Of a DNA stretch of 64,000 bases, positions 4,862 through 64,000 are shown in pieces. The notes under the pieces are model-generated. The model worked only from the letters and a program-made list of their open reading frames with translations, ran no database searches and was not told the origin of the DNA. Made by a program: the position numbers and the translations under genes. Numbering within the stretch: the stretch's first letter is position 1; each line of letters starts with the position of its first letter. The DNA is from Thiotrichales bacterium (GTDB taxonomy: Bacteria > Pseudomonadota > Gammaproteobacteria > Thiomicrospirales > Thiomicrospiraceae): assembly GCA_016936535.1 (NCBI GenBank), contig JAFGXP010000001.1, positions 1 through 64,000 of the forward strand, in the 5' to 3' direction.

Positions 4862-6297
4862 TAAAATCGCTCCAAATGGGCAAACGGCAACTGCCCCTTA
4901 TGCACATGCATCTGTCCCAACTCCGCGCAACGGTGCAAAGTCGGCACAGCTTTGCCAGGATTGAGCAAACCGGTATCATCAAATACCGCCTTAATTCCAT
5001 GAAAAATTTCCAGCTCATCGCCCTGATATTGATGGCACATTGAATTGAGTTTTTCGACACCCACGCCGTGTTCGCCAGTAATGGTTCCACCCACATCAAC
5101 ACACAGGTTTAAAATATCGCAACCAAACGCTTCAGTACGCTGCAATTGACCAGGTTGATTTGCATCGTACAGAATCAAAGGATGCAAGTTGCCATCGCCG
5201 GCATGAAATACATTGGCCACTCGCAAATCGTATTTTTGCGATAACTTAGCGATTTCTTCCAAAACATAAGCCAACTGACTGCGCGGAATAGTGCCATCCA
5301 TACAATAATAATCGGGCGAATAGCGCCCAACCGCCGGAAATGCATTTTTACGTCCTTGCCACAAGGCAGTACGCTCACGCTCGTTTTGCGACACTCGAAT
5401 TTGATAGGCACCTTGACCGGTCAGAATCTCCGCCACACGTTGTGCATCGACCTGAACCTGATCGTGACTGCCATCCACTTCACACAGTAACAGCGCTTGC
5501 GCATCAGTTGGATAACCAACCTTGGCAAAATCCTCTGCCGCTTGAATCGAGAAGCGATCCATCATTTCCAAACCAGCTGGGATAATCCCTTCTTGCAAAA
5601 CGGCGGTCACCGCTTCGGCACAGGCTTTTACGCAAGAAAACGCGGCCATCACCAGCTGCGCGGCTTCCGGCTTAGGCAAGAGCTTAAGTTTAATTTCGAC
5701 AATCACGCCCAACAGCCCTTCTGAGCCATTCAGTAAAGCCAACAAGTCGATGCCATCGTCTTTTTCATCAAATACGTACTCTTCACCAGCCATATTCAAA
5801 ACCCGAATCGACGTGACATTGTGCACCGTCAAGCCATATTTCAAGCAGTGGACACCACCGGAATTTTCGGCAACATTCCCACCGATTGAACACGCAATTT
5901 GCGACGATGGGTCTGGTGCGTAATAAAGACCAAAAGGCTCAACCGCTTGAGTCACTTGAATATTTCGCACCCCCGGCTCAACCACAGCAATACGTTGCAA
6001 AGGATCAATCTTTAAAATCTTATTTAATTTTGAGAGCCCCAAAACAATGCCCTCTTTAAGCGGCAAAGCCCCGCCGGCCAATCCTGTACCGGATCCGCGC
6101 GTAATAACAGGGGTCTGATGTGCTTTACAAATTTGCAGAACCCTTTTGACCTGGTCAATGTTTTCAGGCAACACCACCGCCAAAGGTTTTTCGCGATAAG
6201 CCGAAAGCGCATCGCACTCATAAGGACGACAGGCCTCTTCGCTGGTCAAAACCGACGTATTGGGGAGCGCCTGTTGTAAAGCTTGCACAACCTGCAT
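4861..6297 (-). CDS. glcD: Glycolate oxidase subunit GlcD
   Basis: GlcD is the catalytic FAD-linked oxidase subunit that converts glycolate to glyoxylate. The 478-residue protein has the PCMH FAD-binding motif RGSGTGLAGGALPL around residue 65, GGNVAENSGG, and the C-terminal FAD-oxidase domain with NVFHAGDGNLHP and GGTITGEHGVG. It heads the glcDEF operon. Its start at 6297 is preceded by an AAGAG-type ribosome binding site and lies 74 bp from the divergent aminotransferase start. In an autotroph this complex disposes of glycolate made by the RuBisCO oxygenase reaction. That physiological role is inferred from context. Confidence 0.95.
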   Translation of the reverse strand: MQVVQALQQALPNTSVLTSEEACRPYECDALSAYREKPLAVVLPENIDQVKRVLQICKAHQTPVITRGSGTGLAGGALPLKEGIVLGLSKLNKILKIDPLQRIAVVEPGVRNIQVTQAVEPFGLYYAPDPSSQIACSIGGNVAENSGGVHCLKYGLTVHNVTSIRVLNMAGEEYVFDEKDDGIDLLALLNGSEGLLGVIVEIKLKLLPKPEAAQLVMAAFSCVKACAEAVTAVLQEGIIPAGLEMMDRFSIQAAEDFAKVGYPTDAQALLLCEVDGSHDQVQVDAQRVAEILTGQGAYQIRVSQNERERTALWQGRKNAFPAVGRYSPDYYCMDGTIPRSQLAYVLEEIAKLSQKYDLRVANVFHAGDGNLHPLILYDANQPGQLQRTEAFGCDILNLCVDVGGTITGEHGVGVEKLNSMCHQYQGDELEIFHGIKAVFDDTGLLNPGKAVPTLHRCAELGQMHVHKGQLPFAHLERF

Positions 6298-6308
6298 TTT
6301 GATATCTC

Positions 6309-6338
6309 TTGTAAGTCGTTGGAACGAACAATTATAAT
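6309..6338 (+). promoter_or_regulatory. Sigma-70-like promoter for the glyoxylate aminotransferase
   Basis: TTGTAA (6309-6314) and a consensus TATAAT (6333-6338) are separated by 18 bp, 34 bp before the aminotransferase start. The core CAATTATAATTG is palindromic, so a -10 also exists on the minus strand for glcD, but no good minus-strand -35 is visible. Confidence 0.5.
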
Positions 6339-6371
6339 TGGATGCACGCTTTTTTCTATAGAGGATTATCT

Positions 6372-57678: not shown

Positions 57679-58365
57679 TTAAGCCGGTTTTTCAACGACA
57701 AGACGCACCGTTCGAGGAAAATCGGTGCGCTCCACCAGCACAAAACCGGCGCTCTGCAATAAATAAATCAAATCTTCCGCATGGTAACGATTGTGTTCTG
57801 AAAAGTGTTCAAAAACAGCTTCAATCGGCAATGAAGCCATCGGCTCTTGCCATAAATCGCCTTGCGGAAATTTATGCTCAAGATAGGCACTCAAGGGTTG
57901 ACGCACCAAATCAATCACACACCAGCGGCCTCCGGGCTTCAACCAAGCAAAAACCGCCTTGATTAAACTGACCGGCTGCGGCAGCTCATGCAAGAGCATA
58001 TTCGCCATAACCGCCGCCACTTGGCCGCTCTGCGCCCAATTTAGATCCGGTGCCAACAAATCGCCGCGCAATAAATGGGCGTTCTCTGGCAAACTCAAGG
58101 CGGCGGCTAACATATAATCGGCCGCTTCAATCCCCAAAATGCGATTGTGCGGATAGCGCAATGCCAAATCTTGAACAAACTGCCCAATTCCCGCTCCCAA
58201 ATCAAGCACAACCTCCTGAGGCTGAATCGGACCACTCATTTGTTGATTCCAAAAAGCCCAAAACGCTGTGTCATGGCGACGTTCATAACTTTGGGTAATC
58301 ATCGTGCGTGCTTGTTCACCATCTCCACCGTGATGACGCAAAATCTGTTGTTGGGTTTTCTCCAT
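57679..58365 (-). CDS. SAM-dependent class I methyltransferase
   Basis: The 228-residue protein has a Rossmann methyltransferase core: VVLDLGAGIGQFV (motif I, about residues 53-65), ILGIEAADYML, and a VMANMLLHELPQP motif followed by LKPGGRWCVIDL. This matches methyltransferase_11/25-type enzymes. The substrate is unknown. The ATG at 58365 has an exact AAGGAG seven bases upstream, and the gene begins 10 bp after the WYL-nuclease chimera, so it is read with it. In the inferred ancestor it would have followed addA directly. Confidence 0.85.
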   Translation of the reverse strand: MEKTQQQILRHHGGDGEQARTMITQSYERRHDTAFWAFWNQQMSGPIQPQEVVLDLGAGIGQFVQDLALRYPHNRILGIEAADYMLAAALSLPENAHLLRGDLLAPDLNWAQSGQVAAVMANMLLHELPQPVSLIKAVFAWLKPGGRWCVIDLVRQPLSAYLEHKFPQGDLWQEPMASLPIEAVFEHFSEHNRYHAEDLIYLLQSAGFVLVERTDFPRTVRLVVEKPA

Positions 58366-58375
58366 TCCAGTCTCC

Positions 58376-59764
58376 TTAAGGCTGCGCATTCGACAGCGCA
58401 TTTAACTCAATCCATTCATCCAACTGCGCAAAATAGAGTACTTGTTTTTGCGGACGAGTTTCTTGCGCTTGAAAAAGTTCCGCATAACGTTGCAGCTGAG
58501 GTCGATAACGCGTGCACTGCTCCGCAAGAAAATCGGCTCGGGTTTGTGCATCGGTTGCATCGGGCGGCGTACTGGTTTTATAGTCGATAATCCAACGCAC
58601 TCCCTGTGCATCGACAAACGTTCGGTCAACAATATGTAAAGCCACTTCCCCTTGGGCATTCTGCGATTGCAACACATACTCATTGCGCGCATCCACCTGC
58701 TGAGCTGAAAGGGCCCAACGGATTTTTGGCTGATGCCACGCCTGTTGTAAACACCGTTGCGCTCGCGGCCAAGCCAGCTGAACTTGCCGAGTATCTAAAC
58801 CCTGCTGCCCCAACCAACGCTGATAAAAATCCGCACGCTCCTCAATGGAATCCAAAGGAATCTGCTCAATTCCCTGTCTTGCCCACAGCTCCAAGACTTT
58901 ATGCACTAAATGACCGACCGCCTGCGCAATCGGTGCCTGTTGTAAGTGTGCTCTTAATTGTGCTTTATAGGACTCAAGTGAAATAAGAGTAACAAACGGT
59001 AGCCAATATTGGACTATCGGGAGAATCTCTCGGTAATCATGTACTTTACAAGACACAAAAATACCATTATTCCTTAACTCTTTTTCGACCACCTGATTAG
59101 AAATAATATTTCTGGTTCTAAACTGATCTGAAACTTCAGGATTAATTCTTAAAACAACCTTCTGAGTTTCACTACTTCCTACCCAGACAGTATCGGTTTC
59201 ACTTACTTGCTTTTGAAGCGATTTATCAAGCTCGAATTGTTTTTCGCCCAGCCTTAGTAGCTTAATTCGACTCAGTCGAAATGTTTTAAGTTTATCGGCC
59301 TGAACATCAAAAGCCGCCAGATACCACATTCCCTTATAGAACAATAAACGGTAGGGTTGTATGCCACTATCATTTTTTGATTGATATTGAAAGCGGAGTT
59401 CCTGCCTCTGAACAATCCCCTTTTTAAGACTAGCCATATTTTGTTGCATCAAAGAAGTAACCTTTTCTAACTCAAACGGCATAATCAACCAAGAGGGATC
59501 TGGTCGCATAATTTCTTGAATTGTTGATGCTGACCACTTTGAATTTATCGGTGACAGTTGAAAATGGCTGGCGAAGCGCTGTAGATGGGCCAAATTGAAC
59601 TGACCCAAATGAATCGGATCTAGCCAAATTTTCTGACCATCTTGCTCGTAAGGCAAAAAACTTAATTTATTGTGCAGATCTCGCTGAATTGTTCGTTTCG
59701 AAACAGAAAACTCATTTACCAAGTCATTTAAGAAAAGAACTTCGCCTTGATTTAAACGATTCAA
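58376..59764 (-). CDS. WYL-domain regulator fused to an AddA-type nuclease domain (probable chimera)
   Basis: The readable frame is 462 codons. Residues 1-~30 hold the rest of a DeoR-type winged helix (VSKRTIQRDL), ~115-180 a WYL domain (QPYRL, GMWYLAAFD), and ~190-275 a WCX-like end. From ~282 the sequence changes to a PD-(D/E)XK nuclease (GHLVHKVLELWAR, His288; HIVD, Asp380; WIIDYKTS, Asp394 and Lys396) that is about half identical by eye to the last ~175 residues of the intact AddA-like protein upstream. Two 60-base samples I counted are 33% GC in the WYL part and 58% in the nuclease part. The TTG start has no ribosome site; the natural start lies 17 codons earlier behind an in-frame TAA. 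It may be inactive. Confidence 0.75.
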   Translation of the reverse strand: MNRLNQGEVLFLNDLVNEFSVSKRTIQRDLHNKLSFLPYEQDGQKIWLDPIHLGQFNLAHLQRFASHFQLSPINSKWSASTIQEIMRPDPSWLIMPFELEKVTSLMQQNMASLKKGIVQRQELRFQYQSKNDSGIQPYRLLFYKGMWYLAAFDVQADKLKTFRLSRIKLLRLGEKQFELDKSLQKQVSETDTVWVGSSETQKVVLRINPEVSDQFRTRNIISNQVVEKELRNNGIFVSCKVHDYREILPIVQYWLPFVTLISLESYKAQLRAHLQQAPIAQAVGHLVHKVLELWARQGIEQIPLDSIEERADFYQRWLGQQGLDTRQVQLAWPRAQRCLQQAWHQPKIRWALSAQQVDARNEYVLQSQNAQGEVALHIVDRTFVDAQGVRWIIDYKTSTPPDATDAQTRADFLAEQCTRYRPQLQRYAELFQAQETRPQKQVLYFAQLDEWIELNALSNAQP

Positions 59765-59815
59765 AATTTAAGCGATACGTATAGACATTACCGTAGGCGA
59801 TTTTGTTTGAGACAT
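59765..59815 (-). pseudogene. Original 5' end of the WYL gene, cut by an in-frame TAA
   Basis: An ATG at 59815 is preceded by AAGGAGGG at ideal spacing and reads MSQTKSPTVMSIRIA, then TAA (59770-59768), then continues in the same frame into ILNRLNQGEVLFLNDL. The words on both sides of the stop together make a normal first helix of a WYL-regulator winged helix. The stop therefore looks like a nonsense mutation (or recoding site) at codon 16 rather than a separate leader peptide. Confidence 0.7.
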
Positions 59816-59843
59816 TGATTACCCTCCTTATTTTTTAAAAGAC

Positions 59844-59877
59844 AGTATATGACTCGGTGGTGACACATGGCGTCACC
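59844..59877 (-). promoter_or_regulatory. Promoter and dyad operator candidate of the WYL gene
   Basis: GGTGAC (59859-59864) and GTCACC (59872-59877) form a perfect six-base inverted repeat with a seven-base spacer. On the minus strand TATACT (59849-59844) is a good -10, and the dyad covers the place of its -35. A dimeric regulator bound here would block the promoter, so autoregulation by the WYL protein is a reasonable guess. Confidence 0.5.
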
Positions 59878-59923: not shown

Positions 59924-62900
59924 TTAACAACTTCTTTGTTCAACTTCCACCCAAGCATCAATTTCTGCCAGATAGAGTACCAATTTTTGCGTACGGTCTT
60001 CTTGCGCTGAGAAAAGTTCTGCGTAACGATTAAGTTGTGCTTGGTAGTATTTTTTCTGTTCGGCGATAAATTCTTGGCGTTTTTGAGCGTTATCGCAGCC
60101 CTGACAACTGCTGGTTTTATAGTCGATAATCCAGCGCGTTCCTTCATTATCAATCAAGGTGTAATCAACAATATGCAGTTCGATTTCGCCCTGCGCATTG
60201 ACCGATTGCAGTTCCAGCTCACACTGCGCCTGTTGCTGATTTTGCGATAGCGCCCAGCGAATTTGTTGATTACCGAGTGCATTGCTCAAGCAGGTTTTCA
60301 CCTTTTTCCAAGCGCGTTCAATCTGTTCGGTGTTTAAGCCTTGATGTTGCAACCAGCGGAGATAGAAACCTTCCTGCTTTGCCAAAATATCATCGGCAAT
60401 ATTTTCAATGCCGAGTCGCGCCCACTGTTCCAAGACCTTGTGAACCAGATTACCAGCCGCTTTGGAGACCAGATTCGCGCCTTGCCAGTAATCGGGTTCT
60501 AAATCGGCATTAACCTCTTCCACAATAGGCGCTGGTGCCGTTTTCTCTGCGATAACCGATAACTGCGGTTTTGGCAGATGCGCAAGCGTGTCAAACAGAC
60601 CTTGACGCTGCAACGGCAGACGAGAAACCCTAATCTCGGTTTCATTGTCGTTAGCCTCTTCCGTGTCTGGCAAATCTTGAGTTAAACGCTCGCTAATCGC
60701 CGCCTGCACCGAAGTACCCAAAGCCGGCCATAGCGATTCCAACATCGAATCTTTGGTTGCTTTAAAAGTACTTTCATCGCTATCCGCTTTGATTTTCAGC
60801 TCAGCAAACAGGTGCAGTTGCACTTTGGCGCGCGTGCAGGCGACATACAGCAAACGCCCCAATTCAAAGCCTTGTTTCTGTTTTTCAAACTGGGTCAGCA
60901 ATTTACTGAGATGCGATTTATCCTGCCCTTTTTGGTCAATCGGCGCCAACACCAAACGCTCTTCCTGCGCAGAGTCCATAAACTGGAACCACGACACCAA
61001 TTCAGGATCATCGCCCCGCGGCTTTTTATTCAATCCCGGCAGAATCACCGTATCGAACTCCAACCCTTTGGATTTGTGCATGGTCATAATCTCGATCTGC
61101 TGGCTCGGTTCGGAAGCGTCGGCACTAGCATAGAGCGTTGCGACCAGCTCTTGCAAACGACTAAACTCCAACGCCTCATGGTCAAACTGTGACAACACCT
61201 CAAAATAGGCGGCCACATTTTGTAGCGCAATCGGACTCTCAACACACAAAGCGCCGTCCAACATTAGCCAGCACTCCTTCAACAGTTTCGAGAAGTCATG
61301 GACGCCCAATTGAGTAATCGCGGTTTGTAGAATCGGCCACGCTTGTTGCAAACGCGCTTGCCCCTCTTCGCTCAGCGTCGCCAGATCAATTAAGCCGTTT
61401 TCCTGCAATGCCTGTTCAATACAGAAAGCCACCGTTTTATAAGGCTTGGCGGCGATCAACGCATGTAGATCATGCAGGTTCAAACCCACTAAAGGCGAAC
61501 GCAATAGCGCAATCCAAGCCGCACGATCGCCAAGATGCAATAGCGCGCGACTCAATGCCAAACAGTCTTGAACTTCCTGACGCTCCTGCAAGGTTTCCAA
61601 CTCTACCGCACGGAACGGAATGCCGGCTTTTTTCAGCTCAATGGCAATGGCCAAAAGGTGCGAACGCGAGCGCCCGAGCACGGCAATTTTACGACTGTAG
61701 ATTGCCTCGTTTTCCGCCGTTTCTTGTGCACGCAATATTGCTAAACGCTGCACGATAAATTCGACAATTCGTGAACTCTGCTCGCCGTCGCCGATAAACG
61801 CCCAATGGTTAAAGACCGCCGTTTCGATATCGTCACGCGGAGTGAGCGCATGGCTGAATTTGACCGCGCCCTTTGCCATGTCATCGTCTTTTGGTAACAC
61901 CTTTTTAAAGGTGTCGTTAACCCACTCGACCACCTGTTTGGCGGAGCGGAAATTGACCGTTAGATTCAGCGGTGTCAGCTGAACAGAGTCAAATTTGCCC
62001 TGCCACGCCTTGAGGAAATTCGCTACTTCCGCCTCGCGAAAACGGTAGATCGACTGCATCGGGTCACCCACAATAAACAGCGTACGCATATCTTCGCTCT
62101 GCCAACCGGCAACCAGTTTTTCGACCAACTCATACTGCTTGGAGCTGGTGTCTTGAAACTCATCAATCAGCAGATGTTGAATCTGATAATCGAGTTGCAA
62201 GGCCAGATCGGTCGGTTCGTCTTTATTACCCAGAGATTGTGACGCGGACTGGGCGATTTCAATAAAATCCGCCTCGGCACGACTCTGAAAAACCAATTTC
62301 AGGTTCGCCGCACAGACCTTCAACAACTGCATCAAGCTCTGTAATTTCAACCATTGATCGTCACTGTAATGCGGATCAGGCAAATCTTTCAGTGCCGCCA
62401 ATGCGGTTGCTAAAGAGCCGTTCCGATCATCGGCATCTCTTAATCCTTGCAGCACCTGGAGCATTTGATCTTTACGCTCTTTATCTTCGCCTTTGCCACC
62501 CGGAAAACCGTTATTTTTATTAACGGTTTTGCGGATATCGCCTTTGCCAGTCAAAAGCATATCTGCCAAAATACGCCACGCTTCGGTATCCTCTTCGGCG
62601 AACGGCCAAGCACTGGCAATCTTCGCCAAATCCGGCTGATCCTTGTGTTGCGCATAATCGGCAATCTCGCAAACCTCGGCTAAGAGCCCTTCCACTCCGC
62701 TAAGCGATTTTCGATGTTGACGCAGTTCGCTGAGCACGATTTCATGCAAAGCATTTTCCAATCCCTGTCGCGCGTCGGAATCACTATATTTCAAATGATC
62801 CATCCACTGATCGCGTTTTGCCAACATGGCGCACAACAGGCTTTGCGCTCGTGCATAACGCCCATTGACCAACTCCAACAACGGCTCGACCAGATGCACA

Positions 62901-63481
62901 AAACTCTCTTCCTGTAACACCTGACGCACTGCTTCCTGATAGGCTTGTTGCGGCTTGTCACTCAGGTTTAACTGCGAACCCATTTTGGAAAGAATCGGCA
63001 TCTGCCCGACCAGAAAACTGTTAAAACCGTCGATGGTCTTAATCCGCAAACGGTTCGGGTTACTCAGTAGCTGCCAATCCATTTCGGCATCACGTTGCAG
63101 TGCTTTTTGCGCCAATTTATGAGTATTGCGATCAACCAAACTGGCGTTATCCGCCAGCGGTTTAGAACCGAAAACCAAGGCTTTCATAATTCGCTCGCGC
63201 ATCTCCGCTGCCGCCTTTTTGGTAAAGGTCATGGCGACAATCTGCTCCGGTGATTTCACCTGCGACAAGAGCCCCAAATAGCGTTGCGTTAAGAGCGAGG
63301 TTTTTCCCGACCCTGCCGGCGCCTGCACAATAAAAGAACGGAAAGGGTCAATCGCCTGCAAACGCGCTTGCGCATCATCCAATTTAGGATCCAGTTGCAA
63401 GCCGAAAAGCTGGTCAACACTTGGCAGAACAGAATTAGGCAGAACTGAACTCGGCAAAATAGAATCGGTCATATTATTCAT
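59924..63481 (-). CDS. addA: AddA-like UvrD/RecB-family helicase-nuclease
   Basis: This is the helicase-nuclease subunit of an AddAB-type double-strand-break resection enzyme that loads recombination. The 1185-residue protein has a UvrD-type helicase: Walker A APAGSGKTS (54-62), AMTFTKKAAAEMRER, LLIDEFQDTSSKQYE (motif II), FIVGDPMQSIYRFR (motif III), LNLTVNFRS, TMHKSKGLEFDTVILPGL (motif V) and LLYVACTRAK (motif VI). A C-terminal PD-(D/E)XK nuclease runs from ~1010 (NLVHKVLEQW; Asp1120 and Lys1122 in IIDYKTS). Its ATG overlaps the stop of the upstream addB-like gene (ATGA). RecBCD is the more usual enzyme in gammaproteobacteria, hence the AddA-like label. Confidence 0.85.
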   Translation of the reverse strand: MNNMTDSILPSSVLPNSVLPSVDQLFGLQLDPKLDDAQARLQAIDPFRSFIVQAPAGSGKTSLLTQRYLGLLSQVKSPEQIVAMTFTKKAAAEMRERIMKALVFGSKPLADNASLVDRNTHKLAQKALQRDAEMDWQLLSNPNRLRIKTIDGFNSFLVGQMPILSKMGSQLNLSDKPQQAYQEAVRQVLQEESFVHLVEPLLELVNGRYARAQSLLCAMLAKRDQWMDHLKYSDSDARQGLENALHEIVLSELRQHRKSLSGVEGLLAEVCEIADYAQHKDQPDLAKIASAWPFAEEDTEAWRILADMLLTGKGDIRKTVNKNNGFPGGKGEDKERKDQMLQVLQGLRDADDRNGSLATALAALKDLPDPHYSDDQWLKLQSLMQLLKVCAANLKLVFQSRAEADFIEIAQSASQSLGNKDEPTDLALQLDYQIQHLLIDEFQDTSSKQYELVEKLVAGWQSEDMRTLFIVGDPMQSIYRFREAEVANFLKAWQGKFDSVQLTPLNLTVNFRSAKQVVEWVNDTFKKVLPKDDDMAKGAVKFSHALTPRDDIETAVFNHWAFIGDGEQSSRIVEFIVQRLAILRAQETAENEAIYSRKIAVLGRSRSHLLAIAIELKKAGIPFRAVELETLQERQEVQDCLALSRALLHLGDRAAWIALLRSPLVGLNLHDLHALIAAKPYKTVAFCIEQALQENGLIDLATLSEEGQARLQQAWPILQTAITQLGVHDFSKLLKECWLMLDGALCVESPIALQNVAAYFEVLSQFDHEALEFSRLQELVATLYASADASEPSQQIEIMTMHKSKGLEFDTVILPGLNKKPRGDDPELVSWFQFMDSAQEERLVLAPIDQKGQDKSHLSKLLTQFEKQKQGFELGRLLYVACTRAKVQLHLFAELKIKADSDESTFKATKDSMLESLWPALGTSVQAAISERLTQDLPDTEEANDNETEIRVSRLPLQRQGLFDTLAHLPKPQLSVIAEKTAPAPIVEEVNADLEPDYWQGANLVSKAAGNLVHKVLEQWARLGIENIADDILAKQEGFYLRWLQHQGLNTEQIERAWKKVKTCLSNALGNQQIRWALSQNQQQAQCELELQSVNAQGEIELHIVDYTLIDNEGTRWIIDYKTSSCQGCDNAQKRQEFIAEQKKYYQAQLNRYAELFSAQEDRTQKLVLYLAEIDAWVEVEQRSC

Positions 63482-63999
63482 TCTTCGCCCTCCTCTGTTT
63501 GCACGCGCATCTGCTGGCGCACTTCCGGCAGACGCAACGCCAGATAGGCATTGGCATATTTCACATCATCCTCTTTAGCAAATGCCATTCGTGCATCGCC
63601 CTGCTGAATTTGTCGCGCCAAATCCTCAACCTCATCTTTTAAAGACTGCAATAGATCGTCCCACTGCACCTGATAAAACTCGCTATTCTCTTTTTCGGAA
63701 AGCTTGCTAAAAATCTTTGTACCGCTTTTCGGCAAAATAGCTTCATCCTCAACCAGCGCGCTAAAACTGACGCCATCATCGGAATGCAGTAGCCCGTAGC
63801 CGATACCGCAAATTCCGTCGCTGAGTTGCTTAACCATCTTGTCTTGCGACTCCGCACCGATCTGCGCCAGTGCATGCAGATAAACCGCCAACTGCGGCGC
63901 TTGCAACGGCGTTTTCAGCAGATCATTAATGCTCGCCTTACCGCTCTTATAGTCGATAATCAGCGCCTTGCCGTCCACTTGGTCGATGCGGTCGATAAT
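63478..63999 (-). CDS. AddB-like PD-(D/E)XK nuclease, C-terminal part only
   Basis: The frame is open to the right edge, so only the C-terminal ~173 codons are seen. They contain IIDRIDQVDGKALIIDYKSG, the D-(D/E)xK core of the RecB-like nuclease found at the C-terminus of AddB/RexB and of the related 'probable DNA repair protein' family. A helical tail follows. It precedes and overlaps addA by four bases. The first internal ATG (63978) is not the true start. Whether the missing part has the inactive helicase domain of AddB cannot be seen. Confidence 0.7.
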   Translation of the reverse strand: MIDRIDQVDGKALIIDYKSGKASINDLLKTPLQAPQLAVYLHALAQIGAESQDKMVKQLSDGICGIGYGLLHSDDGVSFSALVEDEAILPKSGTKIFSKLSEKENSEFYQVQWDDLLQSLKDEVEDLARQIQQGDARMAFAKEDDVKYANAYLALRLPEVRQQMRVQTEEGEE

Positions 64000-64000
64000 C

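Follow-up and report, generated by a model that had tools for sequence, protein, structure and literature searches.

A WYL-nuclease open reading frame next to addAB in a Thiotrichales bacterium is very probably the scar of a gene replacement

The open reading frame at 58376-59764 (minus strand) of the window, the stretch of 64,000 nucleotides analyzed here, joins a WYL regulator to a RecB-type nuclease end and very probably corresponds to the scar of a gene replacement rather than to a new protein. Sequence comparisons indicate that the intact addB-addA pair beside it was imported from a relative of strains G019, G024 and G026, and that the nuclease half is what remains of the resident addA, its 3' end, still at its own-lineage place before a methyltransferase gene. 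On our best reading the apparent fusion itself is ordinary, and it is the swap of a DNA-repair gene that can be clearly read. A striking domain fusion seen in one genome can be resolved to a recombination scar by gene order together with gene trees, which here indicate that AddAB, itself a recombination enzyme, was probably replaced by the version of another species in the genus; they do not point to a new class of regulated nuclease. The features of the locus are:

57679-58365, minus strand: SAM methyltransferase gene, putatively resident (Pfam, gene order, identities)
58376-59764, minus strand: open frame (462 aa from TTG), WYL plus nuclease; junction at residues ~272-280 (~58925-58951)
58376-58940, minus strand: putative 3' end of the resident addA, a RecB-type PD-(D/E)XK nuclease without helicase (PDDEXK_1, gene order, tree position)
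58941-59815, minus strand: WYL-regulator gene, interrupted and slightly truncated, natural ATG at 59815 (Pfam, GC, alignment)
59768-59770, minus strand: in-frame TAA, codon 16 of the WYL gene (sequence)
59822-59829, minus strand: Shine-Dalgarno-like AAGGAGGG, six bases before ATG 59815 (sequence; presumed role)
59924-63481, minus strand: intact addA (1185 aa), putatively imported, 78% identical to that of G019 (Pfam, identities, trees)
63478-64000, minus strand: 3' part of the intact addB (the gene runs on to contig position 66345), putatively imported with addA

Pfam profiles recognize two domains in the 462-aa protein, WYL (PF13280, E 7.5e-15) at residues 109-171 and PDDEXK_1 at residues 266-445, and no helicase. 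Similarity to seven aligned WYL homologues stops at about residue 272, and that to AddA is clear from about residue 276-282. Much of the original prediction was borne out by these comparisons. The frame is indeed an in-frame WYL-nuclease fusion with a junction at about residues 272-280, and its nuclease end is about half identical to the C-terminus of the neighboring AddA (52% identity over fusion residues 263-455, E 1.4e-56). The catalytic set of RecB-type nucleases is His/Asp/Asp/Lys, and all the visible catalytic residues said to be kept (His288, Asp380, Asp394 and Lys396) are present. The shift in base composition was also counted correctly (33.3% GC in 59041-59100, 58.3% in 58681-58740). 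Taken by part, GC content is 37.6% in the WYL half (GC3 33.5%, codons 1-272 from TTG) against 51.3% in the nuclease half. The fusion thus shares with the AddA C-terminal nuclease both its PDDEXK_1 match and its four catalytic residues. However, it is devoid of the SF1 helicase part that AddA carries.

The WYL half had been described as a complete regulator. Its WYL domain is well recognized, also by the PADLOC WYL models, but its completeness did not hold. The TTG start (59762-59764) lies one further codon past the TAA that interrupts the gene at codon 16, and no Shine-Dalgarno sequence was found before it. Aligned with the seven homologues (that of Diaphorobacter taken from an inner start located 20 codons past its annotated start), the frame read from this TTG is short of 17 residues at the N-terminus, and the final few residues of the regulator are missing too. 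For HTH_DeoR, the match covers the profile only from position 7 onward and falls short of the cut-off. WCX is not called in the fusion at E <= 0.001, while it is called in all three WYL homologues scanned. An inverted repeat, GGTGAC-N7-GTCACC, is found before the WYL gene at 59859-59877. Since an equally long perfect arm arises in 151 of 500 shuffled versions of the 108-base stretch, the repeat is not proposed as an operator.

Gene order was compared in 33 related loci. Both addA and the methyltransferase gene are present in 23 of them, 22 belonging to the genus of the window and one to another genus of the family; the remaining 10 have no methyltransferase match, several because the contig ends. 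In 17 of the 23 loci addA lies directly before the methyltransferase gene, and none of the 33 shows a match to the WYL query (E <= 1e-3). The six other loci (L038, L040, L043, L047, L049 and L051) carry an insert of ~4.3-4.4 kb between addA and the methyltransferase gene, which in five of them is a pair of long frames. The one insert scanned, that of L038, encodes a phosphonate-binding-like protein and a dCache-PAS-GGDEF-EAL protein. A long frame seems to be broken in the L051 insert. Judged by AddA, the nearest named records belong to Thiomicrorhabdus sp. 6S3-12 (78%) and T. marina 6S2-11 (67%).

Two other origins of a second addA end were considered and are not retained. A tandem duplication at the local addA is rejected because the best stretch shared by this end and the nuclease end of the fusion is identical at 159 of 241 bases (66%) and because the two ends occupy different places in the trees. 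Insertion of a mobile element restoring the gene end is not supported either: the longest exact repeat shared by addA and the fusion, 23 bases spanning the IIDYKT codons, lies away from the junction. A separate case is found in locus L029 (G029:C96), where a second, truncated addA 3' end at ~6095-6352 lies ~1 kb behind addA and is identical to the end of that genome's own addA at 236 of 258 bases.

The identity of this genome to G019 was set, gene by gene, against that of G012 to G019. The difference is clearly positive for addB (84.4 vs 65.0, ~+19) and addA (78.1 vs 68.8, ~+9), and also for the pseudouridine-synthase gene (about 73 vs 66, ~+7) and the ygjP-like gene (70.8 vs about 66.5, ~+4). 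It is negative in all 17 comparable flanking genes on both sides (-0.8 to -15.7). The nuclease half of the fusion follows the flanks in this respect (55.4 vs 65.5, ~-10). With G024 in place of G012 as yardstick, the four block genes are again positive, the nuclease half is strongly negative (55.4 vs 71.0, -15.6) and 14 of 16 flanking genes are negative, the exceptions being yraN and the gene of a YSC84-like protein. The counts exclude two genes lacking a match in G019 or G012, and a glycosyltransferase gene at contig position 73,311 that goes in the opposite direction (69.2 vs 56.5), since it matches G024 only weakly and its counterpart in G012 is on a different contig. By identity the upstream end of the block falls at contig ~68,990-69,480, between genes that are also upstream of addAB in relatives; no crossover is visible there.

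Trees of AddAB, of the nuclease half and of the downstream and upstream flanks were built from a preselected set of 7 to 9 genomes. In the AddAB tree this genome groups with G019, G024 and G026 (100/99), and a position outside the four relatives (these three and G012) is rejected (AU p 0.0006). In contrast, the five genes of the downstream flank, combined, place it outside G012, G019, G024 and G026 (95/96). The nuclease half is likewise found outside the four relatives (94/93), and its grouping with G019 and G026 is rejected (AU p 0.020). The nine genes of the upstream flank reject the AddAB-type grouping with G019, G024 and G026 (AU p 0.0004); their best tree does not place this genome outside the four relatives, a topology holding these four together giving AU p 0.38. 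Trees of single downstream genes, which include this genome, its four nearest relatives and up to ten others rather than all rows, mostly leave it in an open fork with the relatives, and it is the combined tree alone that resolves its place. When more addA ends are included in the tree, the nuclease half lies beside the clade of the relatives, in an open fork (97/79) that includes one very long branch, while the end of the intact AddA lies inside this clade (99/81 with G024). The trees do not resolve the place of the two genes directly upstream of addB. At contig 67327-68994 (L075 9328-10995), outside the window, the ygjP-like and pseudouridine-synthase genes look imported by identity and are unsettled by the trees.

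These data bear directly on a first alternative, in which the nuclease half would be the foreign part, a fragment carrying the WYL gene and an addA 3' end having been inserted behind the resident addA. The intact addA adjoins addB as it does in relatives, and about half of the nuclease part differs from the intact addA end, both of which this alternative would accommodate. However, it is AddAB that is nested among G019, G024 and G026 while the downstream flank is not, and the nuclease part occupies the tree position of the resident, directly before the methyltransferase gene. We consider this alternative unlikely.

The replacement reading can be detailed as follows. A block of ~10 kb, including addB, addA, the WYL-regulator gene and probably the ygjP-like and pseudouridine-synthase genes, would have come from an unsampled relative of strains G019, G024 and G026 and would have replaced the resident addB together with most of the resident addA. 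That the WYL gene arrived in the same event as the rest of the block appears to be the simplest reading. The upstream end of the block (contig ~68,990-69,480) was probably joined via homologous recombination, and the downstream end would have been joined illegitimately, with the final ~185 codons of the resident addA staying in place before the methyltransferase gene. By chance, this joint would have put the 3' end of the incoming WYL gene in frame with what was left of the resident addA. The fusion is presumably without function. For the nuclease half this loss is something that we infer, because that half contains no stop codon and no frameshift; together with its intact catalytic residues, this fits a recent loss and would also fit use.

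The recombination at the two ends is likely to have resembled homology-facilitated illegitimate recombination (HFIR). HFIR events are characterized by loss of recipient DNA and by short microhomology at the illegitimate joint. Loss of recipient DNA is observed here: the genome, which is 97.54% complete, holds one addB and one complete addA besides the remnant, no second addB or AddA-type helicase part was found in it, and five weak matches correspond to other helicases. A joint of unrelated sequences is observed too, the WYL gene being fused to the addA 3' end. Events with homology at one end and an illegitimate joint at the other have been described as HFIR (PMC3240628); however, the abstract of that work speaks of small linear DNA whereas the block is here about 10 kb, and the HFIR-type scar is deduced from one genome. 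A related situation is described for the T6SS effector genes of Vibrio (PMC5361080): an incoming module takes the place of an older gene or gene domain and pushes what is left of it downstream, strings of 'orphaned' 3' regions occur at rhs loci and a mechanism akin to HFIR is proposed. In both cases the 3' remainder of the displaced gene is left downstream of the incoming module. However, in that description the immunity genes of Vibrio are retained for use, while here the end of an enzyme is left over with no evident benefit.

The fusion was not seen elsewhere. Apart from the locus itself, which alone covers both domains, the two were found together in none of 57 relatives (44 of 58 genomes, this one included, have a match) and in none of 368 other genomes of the class (369 with this one; 109 with a match, E <= 1e-10), the two search sets partly overlapping. 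One match, in G197, extends to fusion residue 288, but across two stop codons. A small number of nuclease matches start up to 29 residues ahead of the junction, short of the WYL domain. None of the 174 matching plasmid records (20 of the 174 listed) reaches 80% query coverage, and the single matching phage record covers the WYL half only. Neither genome_contigs, scanned with the WYL half, nor viral_contigs, scanned with the full-length protein, yielded a relative. The original prediction had taken the same fusion with an intact start in independent genomes as a sign of a real protein, and no such case was found among the relatives, the class genomes or the plasmid and phage records. As far as the comparison could be run, the relatives found carry either the WYL part or the nuclease part alone, the pattern that it had set against a real protein.

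The second alternative is a working two-domain protein made from the TTG, in which a WYL domain sensing a nucleotide or nucleic-acid fragment would control the RecB-type nuclease. It draws on the 462 open codons, on two recognizable domains and on an intact catalytic set; re-initiation after a 15-codon leader frame is conceivable since the TTG lies close behind the stop. WYL domains in one chain with an Mrr-like REase, an HNH endonuclease or a superfamily-I helicase have also been published (Makarova et al. 2014, PMC4012209), an arrangement of WYL and enzyme comparable to the present one. However, no AddA/RecB-type nuclease end appears among the fusions listed in the pertinent section of that paper, and the present frame, unlike those fusions, is a single, interrupted case. 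Moreover, the TTG has no Shine-Dalgarno sequence, the N-terminal part is cut, the nuclease is parted from its helicase and already accounted for as a resident remnant, and the architecture recurs in none of the genome, plasmid or phage sets above. A working protein is therefore very unlikely and, even if true, would be a variant of a known idea, as WYL-nuclease and WYL-helicase fusions are in print (PMC4012209). That the fused frame is still translated at a low level through re-initiation at TTG 59764, behind the 15-codon leader, giving a WYL-controlled RecB-type nuclease acting beside the imported AddAB, is very improbable. The original prediction had left the choice between a recombination scar and a nuclease under ligand-type control by a WYL domain. 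The latter finds no positive support, the relatives found carrying either part alone, whereas support for the scar comes from gene order, from the split between resident and imported parts seen in identities and trees, from the interruption of the WYL frame and from the absence of the fusion elsewhere in the sets searched.

An assembly or binning error joining two organisms is highly improbable: the genome is a draft of 49 contigs, the tree conflict lies within one contig and the single-base stop could be a sequencing error, but two misjoins would be needed since resident-like genes flank the block on both sides within a single contig of 84,934 bases, the search for a second addB or a second complete addA was negative, and the reported contamination is 1.33%.

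The WYL gene, presumably brought in with the replacement block, appears to be of the kind that heads phage-defense operons in some genomes. Defense-associated WYL regulators (BrxR/CapW-like) consist of an N-terminal winged helix, a WYL domain and a C-terminal WCX domain, and are placed before a defense operon. The homologues of the fusion have the same wHTH-WYL-WCX organization as BrxR and CapW and a length of about 300 aa; the fused WYL is at most 37% identical to those aligned. PADLOC detected defense matches in two of three homologue neighborhoods, PbeA and PbeC in G004 and a HerA-like ATPase on an Acinetobacter piscicola plasmid, while that of G197 shows nothing past one weak defense match. 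Unlike BrxR and CapW, the fused WYL is stopped at codon 16, has lost its end and has no defense operon behind it, this place being taken by the addA remnant, the methyltransferase gene and the gene of a PEP-utilizing enzyme. Since defense-type genes follow two of the three homologues, the WYL gene may mark the edge of a defense-type island in the donor.

In G012 and G024 (L022 and L025), the addAB trees conflict with the flank trees. As the AddAB and flank trees disagree on these two strains, addAB seems to have recombined in other strains of the genus too.
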